Origin: a virus
DNA length: 26,024 nt
IMG/VR virus record: IMGVR_UViG_3300045973_000637
Location: 1-26,024 of that record
Strand: one strand, 5' to 3'
Shown: in pieces, positions 8,265-20,008 of the stretch
How positions within the stretch are numbered: the stretch's first letter is position 1
Layout: every line of letters starts with the position of its first letter
Made by a program: the position numbers and the translations under genes
The notes under the pieces: model-generated
Seen by the model: the letters and a program-made list of their open reading frames with translations, nothing else
Told to the model about the DNA's origin: nothing
Databases searched by the model: none

Positions 8265-8449
8265 GCCTTCCCCCTCAACTTTCCGGCCTTGGCCAGCTTG
8301 GTCAGCTGCCGAATCCGCTGTGCCTTGCGGCGGCGAGTCTGCTCCTTCAGGCGCTGCTCTTCGGCAGCCATCCGTCCGCGCATGTCGCGCAGCCGATCAA
8401 TGATCAAGACCGGATCCTGATACATCCAGCCAAACGGCACCGCGCTCAT
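8261..8449 (-). CDS. Small basic coiled-coil phage protein
   Basis: This 62-residue protein has a long charged helix (RMAAEEQRLKEQTRRRKAQR) and a Lys/Arg-rich C-terminus, so it may bind nucleic acid or form a coiled coil. It overlaps both neighbours by 4 nt, which indicates translational coupling in the leftward early operon. No family was recognised. Confidence 0.6.
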   Translation of the reverse strand: MSAVPFGWMYQDPVLIIDRLRDMRGRMAAEEQRLKEQTRRRKAQRIRQLTKLAKAGKLRGKA

Positions 8450-8682
8450 TTCTTCCCCTTGTTATCCAGAATTGATTGCCGAATCCGGGCCGTGACGCCG
8501 CGCCGGACATCATCACGAATCGCGACCGCCAGCGCCGCCATCACCACTTCAAACGCCCGGCCATCTGCCTGCGCTGCCCAGCTGAACAGGTGTCGATTCC
8601 ATTCAAGATCGATGCCGAAAAACTGTGCGATCTCGGCGACCTCGCCGGCCGTCTTCTGCGAGACCACGGCCCGCCCGTTCAC
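8446..8682 (-). CDS. Small conserved-type phage protein, unknown role
   Basis: This 78-residue mostly helical protein (AGEVAEIAQFFGIDLEWNRH, then FEVVMAALAVAIRDDVRRG) is coupled by 4-nt overlaps to genes on both sides. Placement between the replication gene and the Q-like gene suggests a replication or regulation accessory. No specific family was recognised. Confidence 0.6.
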   Translation of the reverse strand: MNGRAVVSQKTAGEVAEIAQFFGIDLEWNRHLFSWAAQADGRAFEVVMAALAVAIRDDVRRGVTARIRQSILDNKGKK

Positions 8683-8885
8683 AGCATCACCATGCCGTTA
8701 TCGTCATCGTTGAACGAATCGTCGCCGGCCGCCCGATCCCGGCTATCCGGCCGACGCGCCGGCTTCATGGGCTTGGCGAATTTCTCGCCGAGCGCCTCTT
8801 CAGCCATCTTGCGAACATGCAGCGGCACGCCCTCACCGGCTTCATAGCGCGCCTTGATTCGCAGCCAGGGCGTCAAATCGGGCAT
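8679..8885 (-). CDS. Small phage protein downstream of the initiator
   Basis: This 68-residue protein starts MPDLTPWLRIKARYEAGEG and ends in an acidic, Asp-rich tail (DDSFNDDDNG). The N-terminal half looks like a short helical domain. It overlaps the end of the initiator gene by 13 nt and the next start by 4 nt, so it is part of the same operon. No function was recognised. Confidence 0.58.
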   Translation of the reverse strand: MPDLTPWLRIKARYEAGEGVPLHVRKMAEEALGEKFAKPMKPARRPDSRDRAAGDDSFNDDDNGMVML

Positions 8886-9919
8886 GGTTGCCCACTTTTC
8901 CCATTGCTACGGCGAGTCTTTCGGGTTTGTCGATCGGCATCCTCAGCCAGCATCAGCGCCAGCTCAACCCGACTGCGCAGCCGATCAATCGCCTCACCGG
9001 CTACGCCCTCGATGCCCAGCGCCTTGGCCTTGGCGATAATCCCCGCCTCGCTGCTCCACCAGACGGGCGATGTCGGACTCTTCTCGCCCTTCCCCTTGCT
9101 GACCCGCCGTCGGCAAACCACGCGCTGCACGAAAATATCCAGGAACGGGAGGTTGATCGGGGATCGGTTTTGCGTTCCCTCTCGATCGCTTTTGGCGAGG
9201 CTGTAGGCCTCGTGCAGTTCCTCGCCGGTCACGGCGAGCTCCAACCATCCGGCGATTTGCGCCGCTCGAGTGGACACCCTGCCCCGGCAGCCGCGCGTCA
9301 GTTCCTGCAGACGTATCCACTCGGCAACGCGGTCCGCCTGTAGCGGCAGCACCAGCAAAGAAGAATTATCCACAGGTGATTTATCCACAGCTGTCACTGC
9401 TGCTGGTGCTGCTTGTTTAGAAGGATGGTTTACCCTTGTTCTTGAGGTGTGCCCCTCATCGCGGTTTTGGGTATTCCCTTCATCGTGCCCCTCATAAAGC
9501 GTATTTCCTTGCCCCGACTGGGTTTGTCCATGCCAATCATCGTGCCCTTCCTGTGTGCCCCTCATGTGCCCCTCATCTTTTGAACGAGCGGAAGCTCGAC
9601 GGGCCCTGGGCAGAAAAAAAACCAGTACTTCGCCGTTTCCGCGGGGCTGAATCAACCCCGCTTTATCCAGCGCATCCAGGGCGCTGCGGATGGCCTTCTT
9701 CGAGGGCGAACCGCACTCGGCCGCATGGCGGCCACGCACAGGCTCGACGTAGAGCTCTTCAGCCAGCGACTGCAGGCTGATGCCACGCACTGTGCCGACG
9801 ACCCCCGAATATCTATCCATGTACCAGCGCAGCACCAAGTAGAGGCAGCGCTGCAGAAACGGCAAGCCGGCCAGGGCCTCCCATTCCGGTGCGCTGAACG
9901 CGATGGCCTTCTCGATCAC
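8873..9919 (-). CDS. Phage replication initiator with winged-helix N-terminus
   Basis: This 348-residue protein starts at GTG 9919 behind a strong GGGAGGGG site. Residues 1-110 look like a winged-helix DNA-binding domain (LQRCLYLVLRWYMDRYSGVV, then KKAIRSALDALDKAGLIQPR). A Gly/His/Asp-rich linker at about 110-165 is encoded by the repeat cluster, and a helical C-terminal domain follows. Lambda O shows the same design: N-terminal origin-binding domain, origin inside the gene, C-terminal helicase-loader contact. No helicase or DnaC-like gene lies next to it in this window, so it may recruit host factors directly. Confidence 0.72.
   Translation of the reverse strand: MIEKAIAFSAPEWEALAGLPFLQRCLYLVLRWYMDRYSGVVGTVRGISLQSLAEELYVEPVRGRHAAECGSPSKKAIRSALDALDKAGLIQPRGNGEVLVFFLPRARRASARSKDEGHMRGTQEGHDDWHGQTQSGQGNTLYEGHDEGNTQNRDEGHTSRTRVNHPSKQAAPAAVTAVDKSPVDNSSLLVLPLQADRVAEWIRLQELTRGCRGRVSTRAAQIAGWLELAVTGEELHEAYSLAKSDREGTQNRSPINLPFLDIFVQRVVCRRRVSKGKGEKSPTSPVWWSSEAGIIAKAKALGIEGVAGEAIDRLRSRVELALMLAEDADRQTRKTRRSNGKSGQPCPI
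9366..9389. promoter_or_regulatory. Two perfect DnaA boxes inside the initiator gene
   Basis: TTATCCACA occurs at 9366-9374 and again at 9381-9389, in the same orientation and 15 bp apart start to start. Both match the strong E. coli DnaA consensus exactly. They lie about 60 bp from the iteron array and would bring host DnaA to a phage origin. Read leftward they encode VDKSPVDNS, an unremarkable linker. Confidence 0.8.
9449..9576. repeat. Iteron-like array, probable replication origin
   Basis: GTGCCCCTCAT occurs exactly at 9449-9459, 9485-9495, 9555-9565 and 9566-9576, with a 9-of-11 copy at 9542-9552. Copies at 9555 and 9566 abut head to tail. Because 11 is not a multiple of 3, the two are read in different codon frames, giving MRGT and DEGH. 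The DNA word, not the protein, is therefore conserved. This is what origin iterons bound by the encoded initiator would look like. Confidence 0.75.
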
Positions 9920-9962: not shown

Positions 9963-10421
9963 CTATTCCGCCATGTCTTCCAGGCGCGACAGCATCGCGG
10001 CCATGGTCTGCTGGACCCGATAGATCGCAGCCTTGACGACCGCCAGCTCGTGCCGCTCGACGCGGCCATCGGCCAGCGTGTCATCCACCGCCCGTCCCAC
10101 GTCACCATTCGCCCGCCAGACCTGCGTGACCAGTTCCAGAACGGCCAGATCTCCGGCCACCGCACCATCTTCCGGCAACTTGACGAACACCCCGCCGCGC
10201 TGCCGTGCCGCGGCATGCGCCAGTTCGTCGGAGTTACACAGATCGACGATCTCTTCCGACCGATCCAGGCTCAGAAAATGCCGCTCGTTGCCGACCAGCT
10301 GATTGCGAAGAATCTGCGGCTTGACGCCATGATCCAGCATAGACAAGGCCGCAGCCAGCGCCTCGATACCCCCATTGAAACTGCGGGCAGCACGGTGCAC
10401 CGCAATGCGTAAATCGCTCAT
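9963..10421 (-). CDS. CII-like phage regulatory protein (CP76 family)
   Basis: This 152-residue protein resembles the CP76-type CII regulators of phages. It has an N-terminal helical DNA-binding region (SFNGGIEALAAALSMLDHGV), a central segment (RHFLSLDRSEEIVDLC), and a helical tail that may oligomerise. The ribosome site GAGGG precedes ATG 10421. It is the first gene past the terminator behind cro, as cII is in lambda. It probably activates lysogeny or integration promoters, which is an inference from family and place. Confidence 0.75.
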   Translation of the reverse strand: MSDLRIAVHRAARSFNGGIEALAAALSMLDHGVKPQILRNQLVGNERHFLSLDRSEEIVDLCNSDELAHAAARQRGGVFVKLPEDGAVAGDLAVLELVTQVWRANGDVGRAVDDTLADGRVERHELAVVKAAIYRVQQTMAAMLSRLEDMAE

Positions 10422-12894: not shown

Positions 12895-13523
12895 CCACCG
12901 ACAACACCCTAGCCAGCCTCAAACGCCGTCTCGAAAAAGCCGAACTGGTGCATCTGCGCAACCATGCCGGAGAACTGGCATCTCGCCTGGAACGCGCCGA
13001 AGAAGAATCAACATCTGCCTGGGCCGCCGCCGAAATGTGGCGTGAAGATCACCTGCAGCTCATGCAGGAATTGGCTGCTGATGGCCACGCTATCGGCCTG
13101 ACCAAGGAAGGTACCGTCGGCCTGATGGCCGAAATAAAATCATCCGCCTGCGCCATCGGCGAACAATGGCCAGGCACCGACGCCATCTATGCCGGAATCT
13201 CGCTGTCAAGCGACAACGCCCGTGCCGTGCATCTGATCCTGTGGCCGGAAACCAATACCAAGCAACTCGATCACGCCGCCGCCATCGCAGTAGCGGAAGC
13301 CGTCAATCCGGAGCACGGAAGCCATATTCCAACCCGGATTCAGTCCGTGACCCTGTACGGCAATTTGAAGGATTGCTTCGACAAGTCGCCCTGGTACTGG
13401 ACATCCACAAAACACGAGAACGGCGAGTGGGCGTTCATCCAGTTCTTCAACAACGGCTACCCGGACCTCCACGACCTCTCTGCCGAGTGTCGGGTCCGTG
13501 CCGTCAGCGAGATTCCACTTTAG
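12891..13523 (+). CDS. DGR target 1 with coiled-coil N-terminus
   Basis: This is a 210-residue protein. Residues 1-80 form a charged coiled coil (LKRRLEKAELVHLRNHAGEL). Residues about 88-210 are a ligand-binding domain close to target 4: both share AIGE-WPGT--YAGI-LSS, HLP/HIPTR-QS and the same end (SEIPL). The last 31 codons carry variable repeat 1. The fold is probably the C-type-lectin/DUF1566-like scaffold used by DGR targets. No signal peptide is visible. It lies 3 kb upstream of the other targets. Confidence 0.88.
   Translation: MTTDNTLASLKRRLEKAELVHLRNHAGELASRLERAEEESTSAWAAAEMWREDHLQLMQELAADGHAIGLTKEGTVGLMAEIKSSACAIGEQWPGTDAIYAGISLSSDNARAVHLILWPETNTKQLDHAAAIAVAEAVNPEHGSHIPTRIQSVTLYGNLKDCFDKSPWYWTSTKHENGEWAFIQFFNNGYPDLHDLSAECRVRAVSEIPL
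13431..13507 (+). repeat. DGR variable repeat 1
   Basis: This 77-nt copy of the template at 18829 starts at a GCG codon and ends at GTCAG. It differs from the template at 8 positions, all adenines in the template. Changed codons: AAC to TTC, TAC, GAC, CTC and CAC, and CAG to CCG. The G+C-rich 3' half (13476-13507) is identical, acting as the IMH-like invariant end. Confidence 0.97.
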
Positions 13524-14263: not shown

Positions 14264-14349
14264 TCGAAACCGTCCTCATCTCGATAGCCATCATCGTCTG
14301 CGGCGACGTGGCCAGCGGCGGAAACCAGATTGAGGGCTACGGCGAATGA
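14251..14349 (+). CDS. Very small membrane peptide ORF
   Basis: This 32-residue frame (MRRLIETVLISIAIIVCGDV) has one hydrophobic segment. It overlaps the GNAT end by 13 nt. No family was recognised, and support is limited to packing between genes. Confidence 0.35.
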   Translation: MRRLIETVLISIAIIVCGDVASGGNQIEGYGE

Positions 14350-14384
14350 TTACCGGACCCACCGTCATTACCGGACCCACCGTC
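14349..14384 (+). repeat. Perfect 18-bp tandem duplication
   Basis: ATTACCGGACCCACCGTC occurs at 14349-14366 and again at 14367-14384 without a gap. It lies just upstream of the ParB-like gene's ribosome site. It may be strand-slippage or a protein-binding site. Confidence 0.8.
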
Positions 14385-14405
14385 TTACTCGAAGGAACCA
14401 TCTCA

Positions 14406-16490
14406 ATGAATGACCTGACCGACCTCAAGCACATCGAAGCGACTCAGCTCTGCCACAGCCAGGCGCTGCTGATTGCCGAGATCCACCCCAGCCCAACCAA
14501 CCCGCGCAAGACCTTCCCCGAAGCCGATATGGCGGAGATGGTCGACAGTGTCAAGCGCCACGGTGTCATGCAAGCCATCCTAGTCCGCCCGTGGCCAGAG
14601 GCCTATGCCTTCGAGGGCGAGCGCCCGAAGTATGAACTGATTGCCGGCGAGCGCCGCTATCGCGCTGCTAAAACCGCCGGCCTGACCTACATCAGCGCCA
14701 CCGTTCGCGATCTGGATGATCATGAAACCCTCGAGCTGCAGATCGTCGAGAACCTGCACCGCAAAGACCTTAACGAGCTCGAAGAAGCCGAAGGCTACGA
14801 GATGATGGTCAAGCGCTATGGCTACACCGCCGAGCAGCTGGCTGAGAAGATCGACAAGAGCAAGGCCTACATCTACGCGCGCCTCAAGCTGACCGCCGCC
14901 GGCGAAGCAGCCCGTACTGCATTTCGCGAAGGCCACCTTGATGCTTCTCGCCTTCTGTTGATCGCCCGGATTCCGACTGAAAGGCTACAAGAAGAAGCGT
15001 TGGCAGAAATCAACGACGAAGGCTATCGCGGGCCCATGAATTACCGCCAGGCGGCGAAATACATCCAGGAAAACTATATGCTGGATCTGGCCAAGGCACC
15101 TTTCTTGTCGTCCGACCCCGAGCTTATTCCCATGGCCGGCCAATGCGGAACCTGCCCCAAGCGAACCGGCAACAATCCAGATCTTTACCCAGAGGTGAAA
15201 AGTGCAGACATCTGCACCGACACAGCCTGTTTTGCGGCCAAGAAAACCGCCCACTTCGTCCGCATCAAGGATGCTGCCAAGACGCAAGGTAGAACCGTAG
15301 TTGATGGTGAAGCCGCCGTAAAACTGCTACGCAACGGCGATTGGGATATCAAGGGCTTCGTCAAACTTGACGATAAATGCTACCAGGCAGGTTTCCGATC
15401 AGAAGGTGGATATCCCACCTATCGCGAATTATTGGCTGATAAAGGCGTACCGGTCACGCTGATCGAGAAGCTGGACGGCACGCTGATCGAGACGGTCGAG
15501 GAGAAAGCCTTCACCGCTATCGCCGCCGAAGTCGGCGCCAAGCCCAAGACAACGAGCAACAGCGGCGATAAGGAGCGCACCGCTAAGGAAAAAGCCGAAA
15601 ACGAATTCCGCCAGCGCCTGTTTGATCAGGTCAGCCGCGCCTATCAGGAATCATTTGACGGGCAAGACCACCTGGATATCTTCAGCCTGCGTTTGATCGC
15701 TCGCCAGTTCTTTTCCTGTACCTGGAACGAATACCAGAAAAAGCTGGCCACCCGCTGGCTACCCAGCGAAGAGAAAATCGACTCGCACGAGCGCATCCAG
15801 CAACTCACTCGGCTGATCGATACCATGCCGTTGGCGCAGCTTAATCTGTTCATGATCGAACTGGCCCTGATCGGCATGTCGCACGTCGGTAGCTATGGCG
15901 CTACGGAAACTCCAGCCCCCTTCCTCGCTGCCGCTCAGCATATGCTCATCTCGCCAGACACGATTCGGCGCGAGATCAAGGCCGAACAGGATGCCAAGGC
16001 GGCTGGCAAGGGCAAGAAGGCGGCGAAGACCGCAAGCCCGGAGTTTGCCGAAGGCAGCTATGTCGAGATCATCGCCTACGATACCCAGAAGGATCTGATT
16101 GGTTCCTTTGGCCAGGTCAAAGCCGTCGGCCGCGCCATCGCTTCCGGAAAACCGATCTACACGCTGCTGCTCGCCGATGGCCTTTCCCTAGTTGCCGATT
16201 CAACCGAGCTAGCCAGCGCCACACAGGCCGCTTTCGAGACCCAACAGGACGAACGCAATCCGGCGAATGCCGCCGCACAGGCCGGCGACGAACCCGCCGT
16301 GGTCCACAGCAAACGTGTTGTCACCCCCATCGCTTATCGCCACCCCGACAACGTCGGTCTGGCATGGACAGGCCGCGGCCGTCAGCCCAAATGGGTTGAG
16401 CACTGGCTGGCGCAGGACGGTAACACCCTGGAACAGCTTGCTGTTGGCCAGCCGCGCTGTGACAAGACGATTGACATCCCCGGGCTGTAA
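14406..16490 (+). CDS. ParB-like protein with H-NS-like C-terminus
   Basis: This 694-residue protein has the ParB N-terminal nucleotide-binding fold (SPTNPRKTF, GVMQAILVRP, ELIAGERRYRAAK near residue 76, ENLHRKDLNELEEAEGYE) and a helix-turn-helix near residue 140 (YTAEQLAEKIDKSKAYIYAR). A Cys cluster follows near residue 245 (CGTCPKRT, then CTDTACF). The last about 45 residues (TPIAYRHPDN, then AWTGRGRQPKWVEHWL) match the AT-hook-like loop of H-NS-family DNA binders. I chose ATG 14406 for its GAAGGA site; an in-frame ATG at 14346 adds the 18-bp repeat. There is no ParA, so a regulatory or nuclease-like role is as likely as partition. Confidence 0.82.
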   Translation: MNDLTDLKHIEATQLCHSQALLIAEIHPSPTNPRKTFPEADMAEMVDSVKRHGVMQAILVRPWPEAYAFEGERPKYELIAGERRYRAAKTAGLTYISATVRDLDDHETLELQIVENLHRKDLNELEEAEGYEMMVKRYGYTAEQLAEKIDKSKAYIYARLKLTAAGEAARTAFREGHLDASRLLLIARIPTERLQEEALAEINDEGYRGPMNYRQAAKYIQENYMLDLAKAPFLSSDPELIPMAGQCGTCPKRTGNNPDLYPEVKSADICTDTACFAAKKTAHFVRIKDAAKTQGRTVVDGEAAVKLLRNGDWDIKGFVKLDDKCYQAGFRSEGGYPTYRELLADKGVPVTLIEKLDGTLIETVEEKAFTAIAAEVGAKPKTTSNSGDKERTAKEKAENEFRQRLFDQVSRAYQESFDGQDHLDIFSLRLIARQFFSCTWNEYQKKLATRWLPSEEKIDSHERIQQLTRLIDTMPLAQLNLFMIELALIGMSHVGSYGATETPAPFLAAAQHMLISPDTIRREIKAEQDAKAAGKGKKAAKTASPEFAEGSYVEIIAYDTQKDLIGSFGQVKAVGRAIASGKPIYTLLLADGLSLVADSTELASATQAAFETQQDERNPANAAAQAGDEPAVVHSKRVVTPIAYRHPDNVGLAWTGRGRQPKWVEHWLAQDGNTLEQLAVGQPRCDKTIDIPGL

Positions 16491-16515: not shown

Positions 16516-17112
16516 ATGCAACAAACGCAAACCCCGCAAATCGGCACTGCCTTCGAAGGCGGTTTCTTTGGCGGCGTCATCAACGTCAATGGCCATCACA
16601 AGGGCGTCATCTGGGCCCCGAAAAAACCCGGCAGCTTTCCTGCCGTTCTGTTGGATGAAGACAAAATCGTCACCGATGCCGGCAGCCCGTTCGACTGCCT
16701 TAACAATACTCTGGCGCTGCTCTCCGCCGGCAGCCATGCCGCCAAGTATGTAACGGGTCTGAAGATCAACGGCTTCCAGGACTGGCTGATTCCATCGCGC
16801 GACGTGCTCGAGCTCGGTTATCGCCACTTCAAGCCGACCACGGACACGAACTGGTGTAGCTGGCGCGACGGCGAGAACCACAACAGCGTTCCACCAGGCT
16901 GGCTCTACACCCGTCAACTGCCTAGCCAGACATCACTCGAAGCCTTCAAGGCCGGCGGCGATGAGGCCTTCGATGTCGTCTGGCATTGGTCATCAACCGT
17001 ACATCCCGATGGCGACTCGGCGTTCATCCAGCACTTCTTCCTCGGCAGCCAGTGCGACAGCGCCCTCTCTGCCGAGTGTCGGGTCCGTGCCGTCAGGCTG
17101 ATTCAACTTTGA
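16516..17112 (+). CDS. DGR target 2, DUF1566-like
   Basis: This 198-residue protein of the DUF1566/C-type-lectin-like class has EGGFFGGVINVNG at the start, GFQDWLIPSRDVLELGYRHF in the centre, then CSWRDGENHNSVPPGWLYT, and WHWSSTVHPDGDSAFIQ entering the variable end. The last 31 codons contain variable repeat 2 and end RLIQL. It is a close paralog of target 3. AAAGGAAG precedes ATG 16516. No signal peptide or membrane segment is seen, so it probably acts in the cytoplasm or in the virion. Confidence 0.93.
   Translation: MQQTQTPQIGTAFEGGFFGGVINVNGHHKGVIWAPKKPGSFPAVLLDEDKIVTDAGSPFDCLNNTLALLSAGSHAAKYVTGLKINGFQDWLIPSRDVLELGYRHFKPTTDTNWCSWRDGENHNSVPPGWLYTRQLPSQTSLEAFKAGGDEAFDVVWHWSSTVHPDGDSAFIQHFFLGSQCDSALSAECRVRAVRLIQL
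17020..17096 (+). repeat. DGR variable repeat 2
   Basis: This 77-nt copy of the template differs at 11 positions, all template adenines. Examples are AAC to TGC, CTC and AGC, and GAC to GCC. The invariant end is 17065-17096. Confidence 0.97.
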
Positions 17113-17147: not shown

Positions 17148-17741
17148 ATGCAGCCCACCAATTTCACTATCGGCGCCGCCCTTGAGGGCGGATTTTTCGG
17201 CGGAATTATCAACGTCTCCGGTCAACAAAAAGGCGTCATCTGGGCGCCGAAGCAGGAAGGCCAGATCAAGGCTCGCCTGATGCCGCAAGGTCGCCGCATC
17301 CTGTCGGCCCATAGCCCGAATGACTGCCTGACCAATACGCAGCAATTGCTTGGTGTCGGCAGCCCAGCCGCTCAGCGCATCGCCGAAATGAACATCAATG
17401 GCTTCGCCGACTGGCTCATTCCGTCCCGCGACGTGCTCGAACTCGGCTATCGCCATTTCAAGCCGACCACCTACAAAAACTATTGCAGCTGGCGCGATGG
17501 CGAGAACCTCAACAGCGTTCCACCAGGCTGGCTCTACACCCCGGAACATCCGGCGCAGACGGCACTGGTTGATTTCCAGATAGATGGCACCGAAGCCTTC
17601 GACGATTACTACTACTGGACCTCGACCGTCCTGCCGACTGGCGAAACGGCGTTCTTCCAGACCTTCCTCAACGGCGTCCAGGGCGACAGCGTCCTCTCTG
17701 CCGAGTGTCGGGTCCGTGCCGTCAGGCTGATTCAACTTTAA
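17148..17741 (+). CDS. DGR target 3, DUF1566-like
   Basis: This 197-residue paralog of target 2 has the same order of motifs (EGGFFGGIINVSG, GFADWLIPSRDVLELGYRHF, CSWRDGENLNSVPPGWLYT, YYWTSTVLPTGETAFFQ). The region that differs most from target 2 besides the variable end is residues 35-65. It holds variable repeat 3 and ends RLIQL. Tandem duplication of an ancestral target gene is the simplest origin. CAGGA lies upstream of ATG 17148. Confidence 0.93.
   Translation: MQPTNFTIGAALEGGFFGGIINVSGQQKGVIWAPKQEGQIKARLMPQGRRILSAHSPNDCLTNTQQLLGVGSPAAQRIAEMNINGFADWLIPSRDVLELGYRHFKPTTYKNYCSWRDGENLNSVPPGWLYTPEHPAQTALVDFQIDGTEAFDDYYYWTSTVLPTGETAFFQTFLNGVQGDSVLSAECRVRAVRLIQL
17649..17725 (+). repeat. DGR variable repeat 3
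   Basis: This 77-nt copy of the template differs at 11 positions, all template adenines. It is the only copy in which the ATC codon near the 5' end has changed (to TTC). The invariant end is 17694-17725. Confidence 0.97.
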
Positions 17742-17777: not shown

Positions 17778-18260
17778 ATGAAACTGCATATCGAGAATCT
17801 CAATATCACCGTGTCTCACCCTCAGCAGCCTGCAGGGCTGCTCGCGACGCTGGCCTTTGCCAACGCCGTATCCAGCACGCCAGCACCAGCGATCGGCGAG
17901 AAATGGCCGGGCACCGAAGCCACCTATGCCGGCATCGCGCTTTCCAGCGCCGGCGACAGCCTCGTCCATCTGCTGCTCTGGGATGAGTCGAACGATATCG
18001 CCCTGCCCTACGCCAAAGCTGTTGCCTACGCCGAAACGGTAAATCGCGACATGAACAGCCACCTCCCGACGCGCCATCAAAGCATCACGCTCTTCGAGAA
18101 CCTGCAGGCCAGCTTCAACCAGGACTACTACCACTGGACGCTGACCAAAACCAAGAGCGGTAAATCGGCGTTCATCCAGTTCTTCACCTACGGCTACCAG
18201 TACACCTGCGACCTCTCTGCCGAGTGTCGGGTCCGTGCCGTCAGCGAGATTCCACTTTAA
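17778..18260 (+). CDS. DGR target 4, paralog of target 1
   Basis: This 160-residue protein has an N-terminal strand-like stretch (MKLHIENLNITVSH) in place of the coiled coil of target 1. The shared domain follows (AIGEKWPGTEATYAGIALSS, then SHLPTRHQSITLF), then YYHWTLTKTKSGKSAFIQ and variable repeat 4, ending SEIPL. I chose ATG 17778; an in-frame ATG at 17745 lies inside the octamer array and is unlikely. It is the last target before avd. Confidence 0.9.
   Translation: MKLHIENLNITVSHPQQPAGLLATLAFANAVSSTPAPAIGEKWPGTEATYAGIALSSAGDSLVHLLLWDESNDIALPYAKAVAYAETVNRDMNSHLPTRHQSITLFENLQASFNQDYYHWTLTKTKSGKSAFIQFFTYGYQYTCDLSAECRVRAVSEIPL
18168..18244 (+). repeat. DGR variable repeat 4
   Basis: This 77-nt copy of the template differs at 9 positions, all template adenines. 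Three AAC codons became TAC and one became TTC, so the encoded surface is aromatic-rich. The invariant end is 18213-18244. Confidence 0.97.
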
Positions 18261-18302: not shown

Positions 18303-18680
18303 ATGCTTCATACCAACCTGCCGATTTACAAGAAGGGTTACGACTTGTTAACCCTTGCCGCCGATGTTCAGCTGAACATGCCCCGCACGTTCAAGCAAAG
18401 CCTCGGCAAGCGCGTTTCAGACGAATGCGTCGATCTGCTCCTCGAAATCGGCTACGCCAATGCCAGCCGAGGCGAAGCACGCTGCGAGCACATCCGCAGC
18501 GTGCTTCGCGGGCTGGAAGTGGTCTCACTGATGATGCGAGTCAGTTTCGACAAGGGCTTTATCTCGCGAAAGATATGGGCCTGCAGCATCGAAATGACCA
18601 GCACCATTGGCGGCCAGGCAGGCGGATGGCTGAAGAAGTCAGCACCCGCGTCTGATTCACAGGGGTCAAGGCTCCTATGA
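18303..18680 (+). CDS. avd: DGR accessory protein Avd (four-helix bundle)
   Basis: This 125-residue protein of four amphipathic helices starts MLHTNLPIYKKGYDLLTLAA. Length, helix pattern (LGKRVSDECVDLLLEIGYAN, then IRSVLRGLEVVSLMMRVSFD) and position match Avd. In known DGRs Avd forms a positively charged pentamer that binds the template RNA and the reverse transcriptase. The stop overlaps the reverse transcriptase start as ATGA. The octamer array occupies its 5' leader. Confidence 0.9.
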   Translation: MLHTNLPIYKKGYDLLTLAADVQLNMPRTFKQSLGKRVSDECVDLLLEIGYANASRGEARCEHIRSVLRGLEVVSLMMRVSFDKGFISRKIWACSIEMTSTIGGQAGGWLKKSAPASDSQGSRLL

Positions 18681-20008
18681 CCGTGCGCTTTATGAATCTG
18701 GTCGCACCCCTGCCCCACAAGGGCACGGACATGCACACCACGGATACCGCAGATCTCTTCTCTGGCTGGTCCGGTGCAGTTTCCCCGCTGAACAGTCAGC
18801 AGGGCGACGTCGATAGTGCGAACGAACGGCGTTCATCCAGAACTTCAACAACGGCAACCAGAACAACAACGACCTCTCTGCCGAGTGTCGGGTCCGTGCC
18901 GTCAGCAGATTCATCCCACTACACCTTCGAGTTGTTGCTGCGTGCGTATCTGGATTGTCGCAAGCACAAGCGCAACTCGAAGAGTGCCCTGGCCTTCGAG
19001 CAGGATCTCGAACGCAACCTGTGGCAGCTGCACCTGGAACTGAGCGACGGTTCCTACTCCCCCGGAAAATCGATCTGCTTCGTCATCACGCGCCCGAAAC
19101 CGCGCGAAGTATGGGCTGCCGATTTCCGCGATCGCATCGTGCATCACCTGTTGCACAACCAGGTTGGCCCCCGCTTCTACGCCCGCTTCATTGCCGACTC
19201 CTGCGCTTGCATTGCCGGCCGTGGCACACTGTACGCAGCTGAACGACTCGAGGCCAAAGTCCGCAGCATTACGCAAAACTGGCGGCGCCCGGCCTACTAC
19301 CTCAAGTGTGACCTGGCCAATTTCTTTGTCGCGATCGACAAGCACATTGTGCAGGCACTGTTCGCCAAGCACATCAACGAACCATGGTGGCTGGCGCTGG
19401 CAGAAACCATCCTGTTTCACGATCCGCGCCAGAACTTTGAATACCAGGGCAACCCGGCTTTACTGGAACGCGTTCCGCCGCATAAGCGCCTGAGCAGCCA
19501 ACCGGCCCACCTTGGGCTGCCGATCGGCAATCTGTGGTCGCAGTTCTCCGCCAACGTTCTGCTCAATGTGCTTGACCAGTTCGTCAAGCACGAGCTGCAT
19601 TGCCGGCACTACATCCGCTACGTCGATGATTTCATCCTTCTACACGAGTCGGCACAGTGGCTCAATGCCGCCAAGGCCCGGATCGAGCAGCTGCTTGCCA
19701 AACAACTGGCAATGCATCTCAACCCCAGCAAAACCATCCTGCAGCCCATCAAGCGCGGCATTGATTTCGTCGGCCAGGTCACTAAGCCCCATCGCCGCAC
19801 TCTGCGCCGCAAAACCTTCAAAGACGCCATCCGGCGACTCGAATCCATCGACGCCACCGATGTTTTTCAGACGGCCAACAGCTATTTTGGCCTTCTTCGT
19901 CAGACCACCCACAGCCATCAAGACCGGGCCATTCTCAGCAACACCCTTCGCCATCGCGGCCACAGCATCAAGGCCGATCTCACCAAGACCTATCGGAGAA
20001 CCGCATGA
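18677..20008 (+). CDS. DGR reverse transcriptase
   Basis: This error-prone reverse transcriptase copies the template RNA with adenine infidelity. Visible motifs: KPREVWAADFRDRIVHHLL, then YLKCDLANFFVAID near residue 207 with the first catalytic Asp, GLPIGNLWSQF near 280 (the IGxxxSQ signature of DGR enzymes), and YVDD at about 315-318. The catalytic domain begins near residue 80. ATG 18677 overlaps the avd stop as ATGA but places the template inside the coding frame, read as a Thr/Ser-rich linker. GTG 18896 would start after most of the template and give about 370 residues, a usual size. The stop overlaps the next gene by 4 nt. Confidence 0.96.
   Translation: MTVRFMNLVAPLPHKGTDMHTTDTADLFSGWSGAVSPLNSQQGDVDSANERRSSRTSTTATRTTTTSLPSVGSVPSADSSHYTFELLLRAYLDCRKHKRNSKSALAFEQDLERNLWQLHLELSDGSYSPGKSICFVITRPKPREVWAADFRDRIVHHLLHNQVGPRFYARFIADSCACIAGRGTLYAAERLEAKVRSITQNWRRPAYYLKCDLANFFVAIDKHIVQALFAKHINEPWWLALAETILFHDPRQNFEYQGNPALLERVPPHKRLSSQPAHLGLPIGNLWSQFSANVLLNVLDQFVKHELHCRHYIRYVDDFILLHESAQWLNAAKARIEQLLAKQLAMHLNPSKTILQPIKRGIDFVGQVTKPHRRTLRRKTFKDAIRRLESIDATDVFQTANSYFGLLRQTTHSHQDRAILSNTLRHRGHSIKADLTKTYRRTA
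18829..18905 (+). repeat. DGR template repeat
   Basis: This 77-nt template has seven AAC codons in the target frame and 18 adenines in its variable 5' half (18829-18873). The 3' half (18874-18905) is identical in all four copies. Beyond it the template reads AGCAGATTCATCCCACT whereas targets 1 and 4 read AGCGAGATTCCACTT. It therefore has an altered IMH*-like flank that should keep it from being overwritten. It lies in the 5' part of the reverse transcriptase frame, in a different codon phase. Confidence 0.97.

Follow-up and report, generated by a model that had tools for sequence, protein, structure and literature searches.

A candidate lytic replication origin with phased iterons and DnaA boxes inside the O-like initiator gene of a temperate tailed phage

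The initiator gene and its surroundings

The gene considered here lies on the minus strand of the window, by which we mean the whole 26,024-nucleotide stretch of viral DNA that was analysed. The gene, its neighbours and the parts of the protein that it encodes are as follows.

8873–9919, minus strand: O-like replication initiator coding sequence, 348 aa, GTG start (from the ORF list, PHROG matches and CII-O-P homologues)
9963–10421, minus strand: CII-like regulator (Phage_CP76), operon neighbour upstream of the initiator
8679–8885, minus strand: small conserved ORF, in the expected place of a P loader gene; same order in L005–L008
8446–8682, minus strand: second small conserved ORF, after 8679–8885; same order in L005–L008
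9608–9892, minus strand: N-terminal winged-helix domain, residues 10–104 (AlphaFold2 pLDDT about 46–72), putative iteron binder
9368–9634, minus strand: linker-coding stretch, residues 96–184, predicted disordered (pLDDT <50), containing the whole candidate origin
8903–9364, minus strand: C-terminal helical domain, residues 186–339 (AlphaFold2), putative contact with host replication proteins

The protein matches PHROG 23635 and PHROG 13103, both of unknown function, and gives weak matches to the replication initiation PHROGs 270/1032. It has no Pfam family at E 0.1, which includes the absence of a match to the RepA_N domain (PF06970), and the NCBIfam search gave no credible assignment. The PF04492 profile (Phage_rep_O, the lambda O family) does not match its N-terminal domain; as a control, the same profile recovers L071, an O protein bearing DnaA boxes. 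A sequence search of solved structures returned Cullin-9 as its sole match, which we judged to be due to chance.

Position and predicted structure are more informative. The layout is lambda-like, with the gene in the CII-O position and followed by the two small ORFs, a Q-like antiterminator and then the terminase genes. Several phage homologues, BR153a and D14P among them, are about 32% identical and have the gene directly before a match to lambda P (PF06992). The AlphaFold2 model, built from five sequences, is of low confidence (mean pLDDT 55) yet shows a clear three-part division. In VIA-align, the winged helix has matches that include the plasmid RepA initiator (4pta/4pt7, Z 8.2–8.3); the RepA matches (4pta/4pt7/5kbj) are not distinctive, being tied with the winged helices of LexA, CRP and ORC. 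The place after CII, the homologues preceding a P-type loader and the three-part fold support the identification of this gene as a replication initiator, in agreement with the earlier note on this DNA. The two small ORFs at 8446–8885, for which the family search gave no match to either, are possibly a loader or an adaptor.

Elsewhere, the window carries a diversity-generating retroelement, with a reverse transcriptase at 18677–20008 and a template at about 18825–18913, within the 5′ portion of the called reverse-transcriptase ORF. Its four variable targets (13430–13515, 17018–17105, 17645–17734 and 18166–18252) show substitutions almost only at template adenines. The 714-aa protein encoded at 14346–16490 is an unusual fusion: it has ParB_N and HTH_ParB domains and ends in an H-NS C-terminal DNA-binding domain.

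A phased iteron array within the linker

All iterons and DnaA boxes of the gene map to the disordered linker. The array lies in the middle of the gene, some 345 nt from the start of the coding sequence, and consists of seven slots of 11 bp at offsets 0, 11, 24, 36, 81, 93 and 117.

9566–9576, minus strand: slot 1, ATGAGGGGCAC
9555–9565, minus strand: slot 2, ATGAGGGGCAC, 11 bp from slot 1 and out of its codon frame
9542–9552, minus strand: slot 3, AGGAAGGGCAC
9530–9540, minus strand: slot 4, ATGATTGGCAT, degenerate in the window, intact in L005, L006 and L007
9485–9495, minus strand: slot 5, ATGAGGGGCAC
9473–9483, minus strand: slot 6, ATGAAGGGAAT, degenerate in the window, near-consensus in relatives
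9449–9459, minus strand: slot 7, ATGAGGGGCAC
9360–9439, no strand: highest AT content in the gene, spanning from slot 7 to the DnaA boxes, 50–62% AT per 40 bp against 39% AT for the gene

The earlier note had reported four exact copies of GTGCCCCTCAT, which reads ATGAGGGGCAC on the gene strand, and these are indeed found at 9449, 9485, 9555 and 9566. It had counted five iterons in all; the four exact copies and a conserved fifth slot stand, but the array has seven slots. The 9542–9552 copy has two mismatches to GTGCCCCTCAT, a degree of similarity for which about 8 matches would arise by chance over the whole window, and it is accepted as an iteron because its slot is conserved in relatives. 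The AT-rich stretch is a candidate unwinding element, with an AT richness that is moderate (at most 62% in 40 bp), and most relatives have an AT peak where the array ends.

The array departs from what the protein sequence would dictate. The adjacent copies at 9555 and 9566 are translated in different frames (...DEGH MRGT...), as the earlier note had observed, and slot 2 is in a shifted codon frame in all six members of the close family, which comprises the window, L005, L006, L007, L008 and L015 and consists mostly of metagenomic contigs. When codons were permuted synonymously with the protein kept, the four exact 11-mers were reproduced in 0.04% of 5000 permutations. The window gene has 15 out-of-frame 8-mer repeats against a permuted mean of 0.6, a number that 0 of 1000 trials reached, and out-of-frame repeats exceeded synonymous permutations in every one of ten genes tested (P at most 0.003). 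Glycine codons in the array are enriched for GGG (P 2e-7). The claim that the repeats go beyond what protein repeats could explain is thus borne out by the frame-shifted slot and the out-of-frame excess, and on this comparative evidence the array is constrained at the DNA level.

The seven-slot offsets are common to 6/6 close family members (L006 with a 24 bp insert), and the slot core in the five close relatives of the window is near RGGGCAY. The Pseudomonas phage BR153a, with a protein of about 32% identity, has the same offsets and a core changed to AAGTGGGCAC. Two prophage homologues, L018 and L019, have other repeat sequences with exact repeats at distances of 70, 81 and 117, and also 11 in L018. 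Comparison of iterons in related initiator genes, which had been suggested as a check, thus finds the spacing kept even where repeat sequence and protein differ; this is the opposite of the outcome named as refuting, in which relatives would keep the protein and lose the repeats.

A natural exchange is apparent between AUS531phi and BR153a, which share 98.4% DNA identity from nt 459, just past the array, to the end of the gene. Upstream of nt 459, in the N-terminal half, they have 33.5% amino-acid identity, and the AUS531phi iteron, AGCTACAACC, is unlike that of BR153a, with a spacing of 11, 11, 12, 67 and 34. N-terminal domain and iteron have been exchanged together, as in lambdoid O swaps. 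That the repeat sequence changes along with the N-terminal domain is the behaviour expected if that domain reads the repeat. Natural sets such as AUS531phi/BR153a and window/L018/L019 differ in recognition sequence and N-terminal domain but largely preserve the slot geometry, and should be useful for the study of iteron recognition. In the distant homologue L024, the linker contains a long exact direct duplication, 105 nt apart, encoding KAARNPPVAGSSKAA twice.

DnaA boxes and the inverted repeat that encloses them

9366–9374, plus strand: DnaA box TTATCCACA, exact match
9381–9389, plus strand: DnaA box TTATCCACA, exact match
9401–9412, no strand: one arm of the perfect 12-bp inverted repeat that flanks the DnaA boxes
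9346–9357, no strand: other arm of the same inverted repeat

The two exact DnaA boxes lie where the earlier note placed them and are the only exact copies of TTATCCACA in the window, where about 0.12 would be expected in 26 kb; both are reproduced in 0.4% of synonymous-codon permutations of the gene. Across five related phage genomes (183.6 kb), exact TTATCCACA occurs eight times, each time in the initiator linker, against about 0.8 expected overall. Exact boxes within the candidate origin are present in 5/6 close family members and start 66–72 nt past the last slot core, on the far side of the AT-rich peak. L007 keeps both boxes with inverted orientation; since they then read VDK and LST, the boxes are not a protein motif. 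No exact box was found in L008, a Dechloromonas prophage that keeps the iterons, or in the Pseudomonas homologues, so the boxes are dispensable across the wider family. L018 and L019 have one exact box each.

Among 16 sampled PF04492 genes, none had an exact DnaA box. L071, a PF04492 protein whose ORF contains VDNSVDNSVDKL, has a VDNSVDNSVDK stretch with tandem boxes. A scan of viral sequences for tandem boxes, which shows occurrence in initiators and gives no rate, placed them mostly outside long ORFs, and only L066, L071 and L097 resembled winged-helix initiators. These three and L028 are unrelated winged-helix initiators (PF04492 or HTH_36) with two or three boxes in the linker, which suggests that boxes within initiator genes arose repeatedly.

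The inverted repeat around the boxes is a feature absent from the earlier note's description. Pairing was scored at fixed offsets, with a conserved GTAAAC and the end of the last box as the two anchors. It gives 12/12 pairs in the window, 11/12 in both L005 and L006 and 10/12 in L015, despite differing arm sequences; compared with synonymous permutations, P does not exceed 0.003 in any of the four. The offset was picked on the window and applied unchanged to L005, L006 and L015. Among 289 combinations of shifts, the unshifted one scores highest (44/48 against a mean of 16), and three arm pairs have changed on both sides. In L007, the two boxes form an inverted pair in a self-folding stem (dG −24.4, z −5.3); this is the only case of a DnaA box within a hairpin stem, the window boxes sitting in the loop. 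L008 keeps a stem without a box. The fold energy of the window hairpin taken alone is unconvincing against synonymous permutations (P 0.08). The case for a covarying inverted repeat enclosing the boxes thus appears good but not final, given that four sequences are few and that triplet-rich arms ease complementarity.

A proposed origin and the role of DnaA

We propose, with a probability of about 0.8, that the linker of this O-like initiator gene is the lytic origin of a temperate tailed phage, at which the phage protein would occupy the slots, the AT-rich stretch would melt and DnaA would help. The sequences show the anatomy, the conserved spacing, the DNA-level constraint, the joint swap of repeat and N-terminal domain, the exclusive placement of the boxes and the covarying inverted repeat; binding, melting, DnaA action and origin activity are inferred. 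The layout is that of an origin in a coding sequence, with direct repeats in the initiator gene between two domains and an AT-rich stretch beside them. First of all, the N-terminal winged-helix domain would bind the seven phased 11-bp slots and form a nucleoprotein complex. Second, the AT-rich stretch beside the array would melt. Third, host DnaA, on one or two TTATCCACA boxes past that stretch, may aid opening and/or bring the host DnaB helicase. GC skew, proposed earlier as a check, lends no support, as there is no sign change at 9.4 kb. Under the proposed reading, an initiator family of so far unassigned function (PHROG 23635/13103) gains a likely job and a mapped candidate origin.

The strongest alternative concerns the boxes. 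The origin could be lambda-like, with iterons and phage protein doing all the origin work and the DnaA boxes only regulatory, in transcription, timing or DnaA sensing. The DnaA-protected sites near the lambda origin and DnaA stimulation of pR work via transcription (PMC3985674; PMC7466680), L008 and the Pseudomonas homologues manage without exact boxes, and the presence of a box is loosely linked to the absence of P, L018 and L019 carrying both. The boxes, however, lie inside the origin by the AT-rich stretch rather than at a promoter, in a fixed place and within a covarying inverted repeat, and we consider a purely regulatory role a real possibility that falls somewhat short of an even chance.

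The locus raises the question of how helicase is supplied when a lambda-like phage has no P loader that can be detected, and whether DnaA provides this step. Neither PF06992 nor a custom P profile matched in the window or in the contigs of L005, L006, L007 and L015, which may be incomplete, and searches for DnaB_C (PF03796) and IstB/DnaC (PF01695) found nothing. Because no P, DnaB or DnaC-type gene is detectable in the clade contigs of 26–42 kb, a host route for helicase loading is attractive. In vitro, a hairpin containing a DnaA box is able to load DnaB, as in the ABC primosome (PMC6127211). There may thus be no phage-encoded loader, the O-like protein opening the origin and DnaA, at boxes in a cruciform or hairpin, loading DnaB with host DnaC in the ABC primosome manner; we regard this version as rather unlikely. 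If true, a lambda-type origin would here rely on the host initiator for the step that P otherwise performs. A simple rule by which boxes replace P was rejected. A box without P is found in the window, L005, L006, L007 and L015, and P without a box in L020 and in the Pseudomonas phages, where a P gene recognized by profile adjoins O; L018 and L019 have both; in L008 and several distant homologues, neither a box nor P was detected.

Alternatively, the repeats could be operator or partition-like sites, serving autoregulation of the initiator operon or incompatibility, with replication starting elsewhere. Initiator iterons do commonly double as operators. Here, however, the array has the mid-gene position seen in lambda and RepA_N origins, with an AT-rich stretch and DnaA boxes next to it, and these phage genomes contain no other exact DnaA box, which makes an exclusively operator or partition role improbable. 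Finally, a low-complexity protein linker (EGH and VDN repeats) is scarcely credible as the source of the DNA repeats: the protein is indeed repetitive (DEGH, EGHD, VDK/VDN) and predicted disordered, but the shifted frame of slot 2 in every family member already contradicts this reading, as do the excess of out-of-frame repeats, the codon bias inside the array and the inverted DnaA box of L007.

Comparison with known systems

The proposed origin shares with the lambda ori in gene O and with Stx phage origins a location in the middle of the initiator gene, an N-terminal DNA-binding part followed by a linker, iterons followed by an AT-rich stretch, and CII upstream (PMC7466680; PMC3985674). It differs in that the protein has no PF04492 match, the repeats are of 11 bp in seven phased slots rather than of 19 bp, no P gene is nearby and exact DnaA boxes are present. 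The earlier description of a lambda layout with added host DnaA boxes therefore holds for the origin-in-gene likeness; the boxes are less of a novelty, because lambda DNA has DnaA-protected sites near its origin, and DnaA sites at a lambda-type origin are not unprecedented (PMC3985674).

RepA_N plasmids such as pSK41 also place Rep boxes centrally in the rep gene and have a winged-helix N-terminal domain and, in RepA_N, a dispensable linker (PMC5703833). The chimeric plasmid pPR9, in which N-terminal domain and origin were swapped and the C-terminal domain kept, parallels the AUS531phi/BR153a exchange (PMC5703833). In contrast, the window initiator has no sequence match to RepA_N, and DnaA boxes were not detected in the staphylococcal plasmids (PMC5703833). 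In SPP1, the direct repeats of oriL to which the initiator gp38 binds are located in gene 38 itself, beside an AT-rich unwinding element (PMC6316719); SPP1 has its own loader gp39 and helicase gp40, whereas the clade of the window shows neither.

Unlike the candidate described here, the origins of P1, R6K and F lie outside the rep coding sequence. These iteron plasmids do share the association of replicon-specific iterons with an AT-rich region and host DnaA boxes (PMC5043065; PMC5703833). In the Pseudomonas temperate phage MD8, repeats were noted within the O-like gp56 gene, a likeness by description only; MD8 has a P-like gp57 and no DnaA boxes are reported there (PMC8508860). A phased seven-slot array combined with exact boxes in a covarying inverted repeat and the lack of a detectable loader did not turn up in a search of the literature, which covered few subscription papers. 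By analogy, the system would function like lambda O, SPP1 gp38 and RepA_N, with DnaA boxes added in the style of iteron plasmids, in a protein that by sequence belongs to neither PF04492 nor RepA_N.
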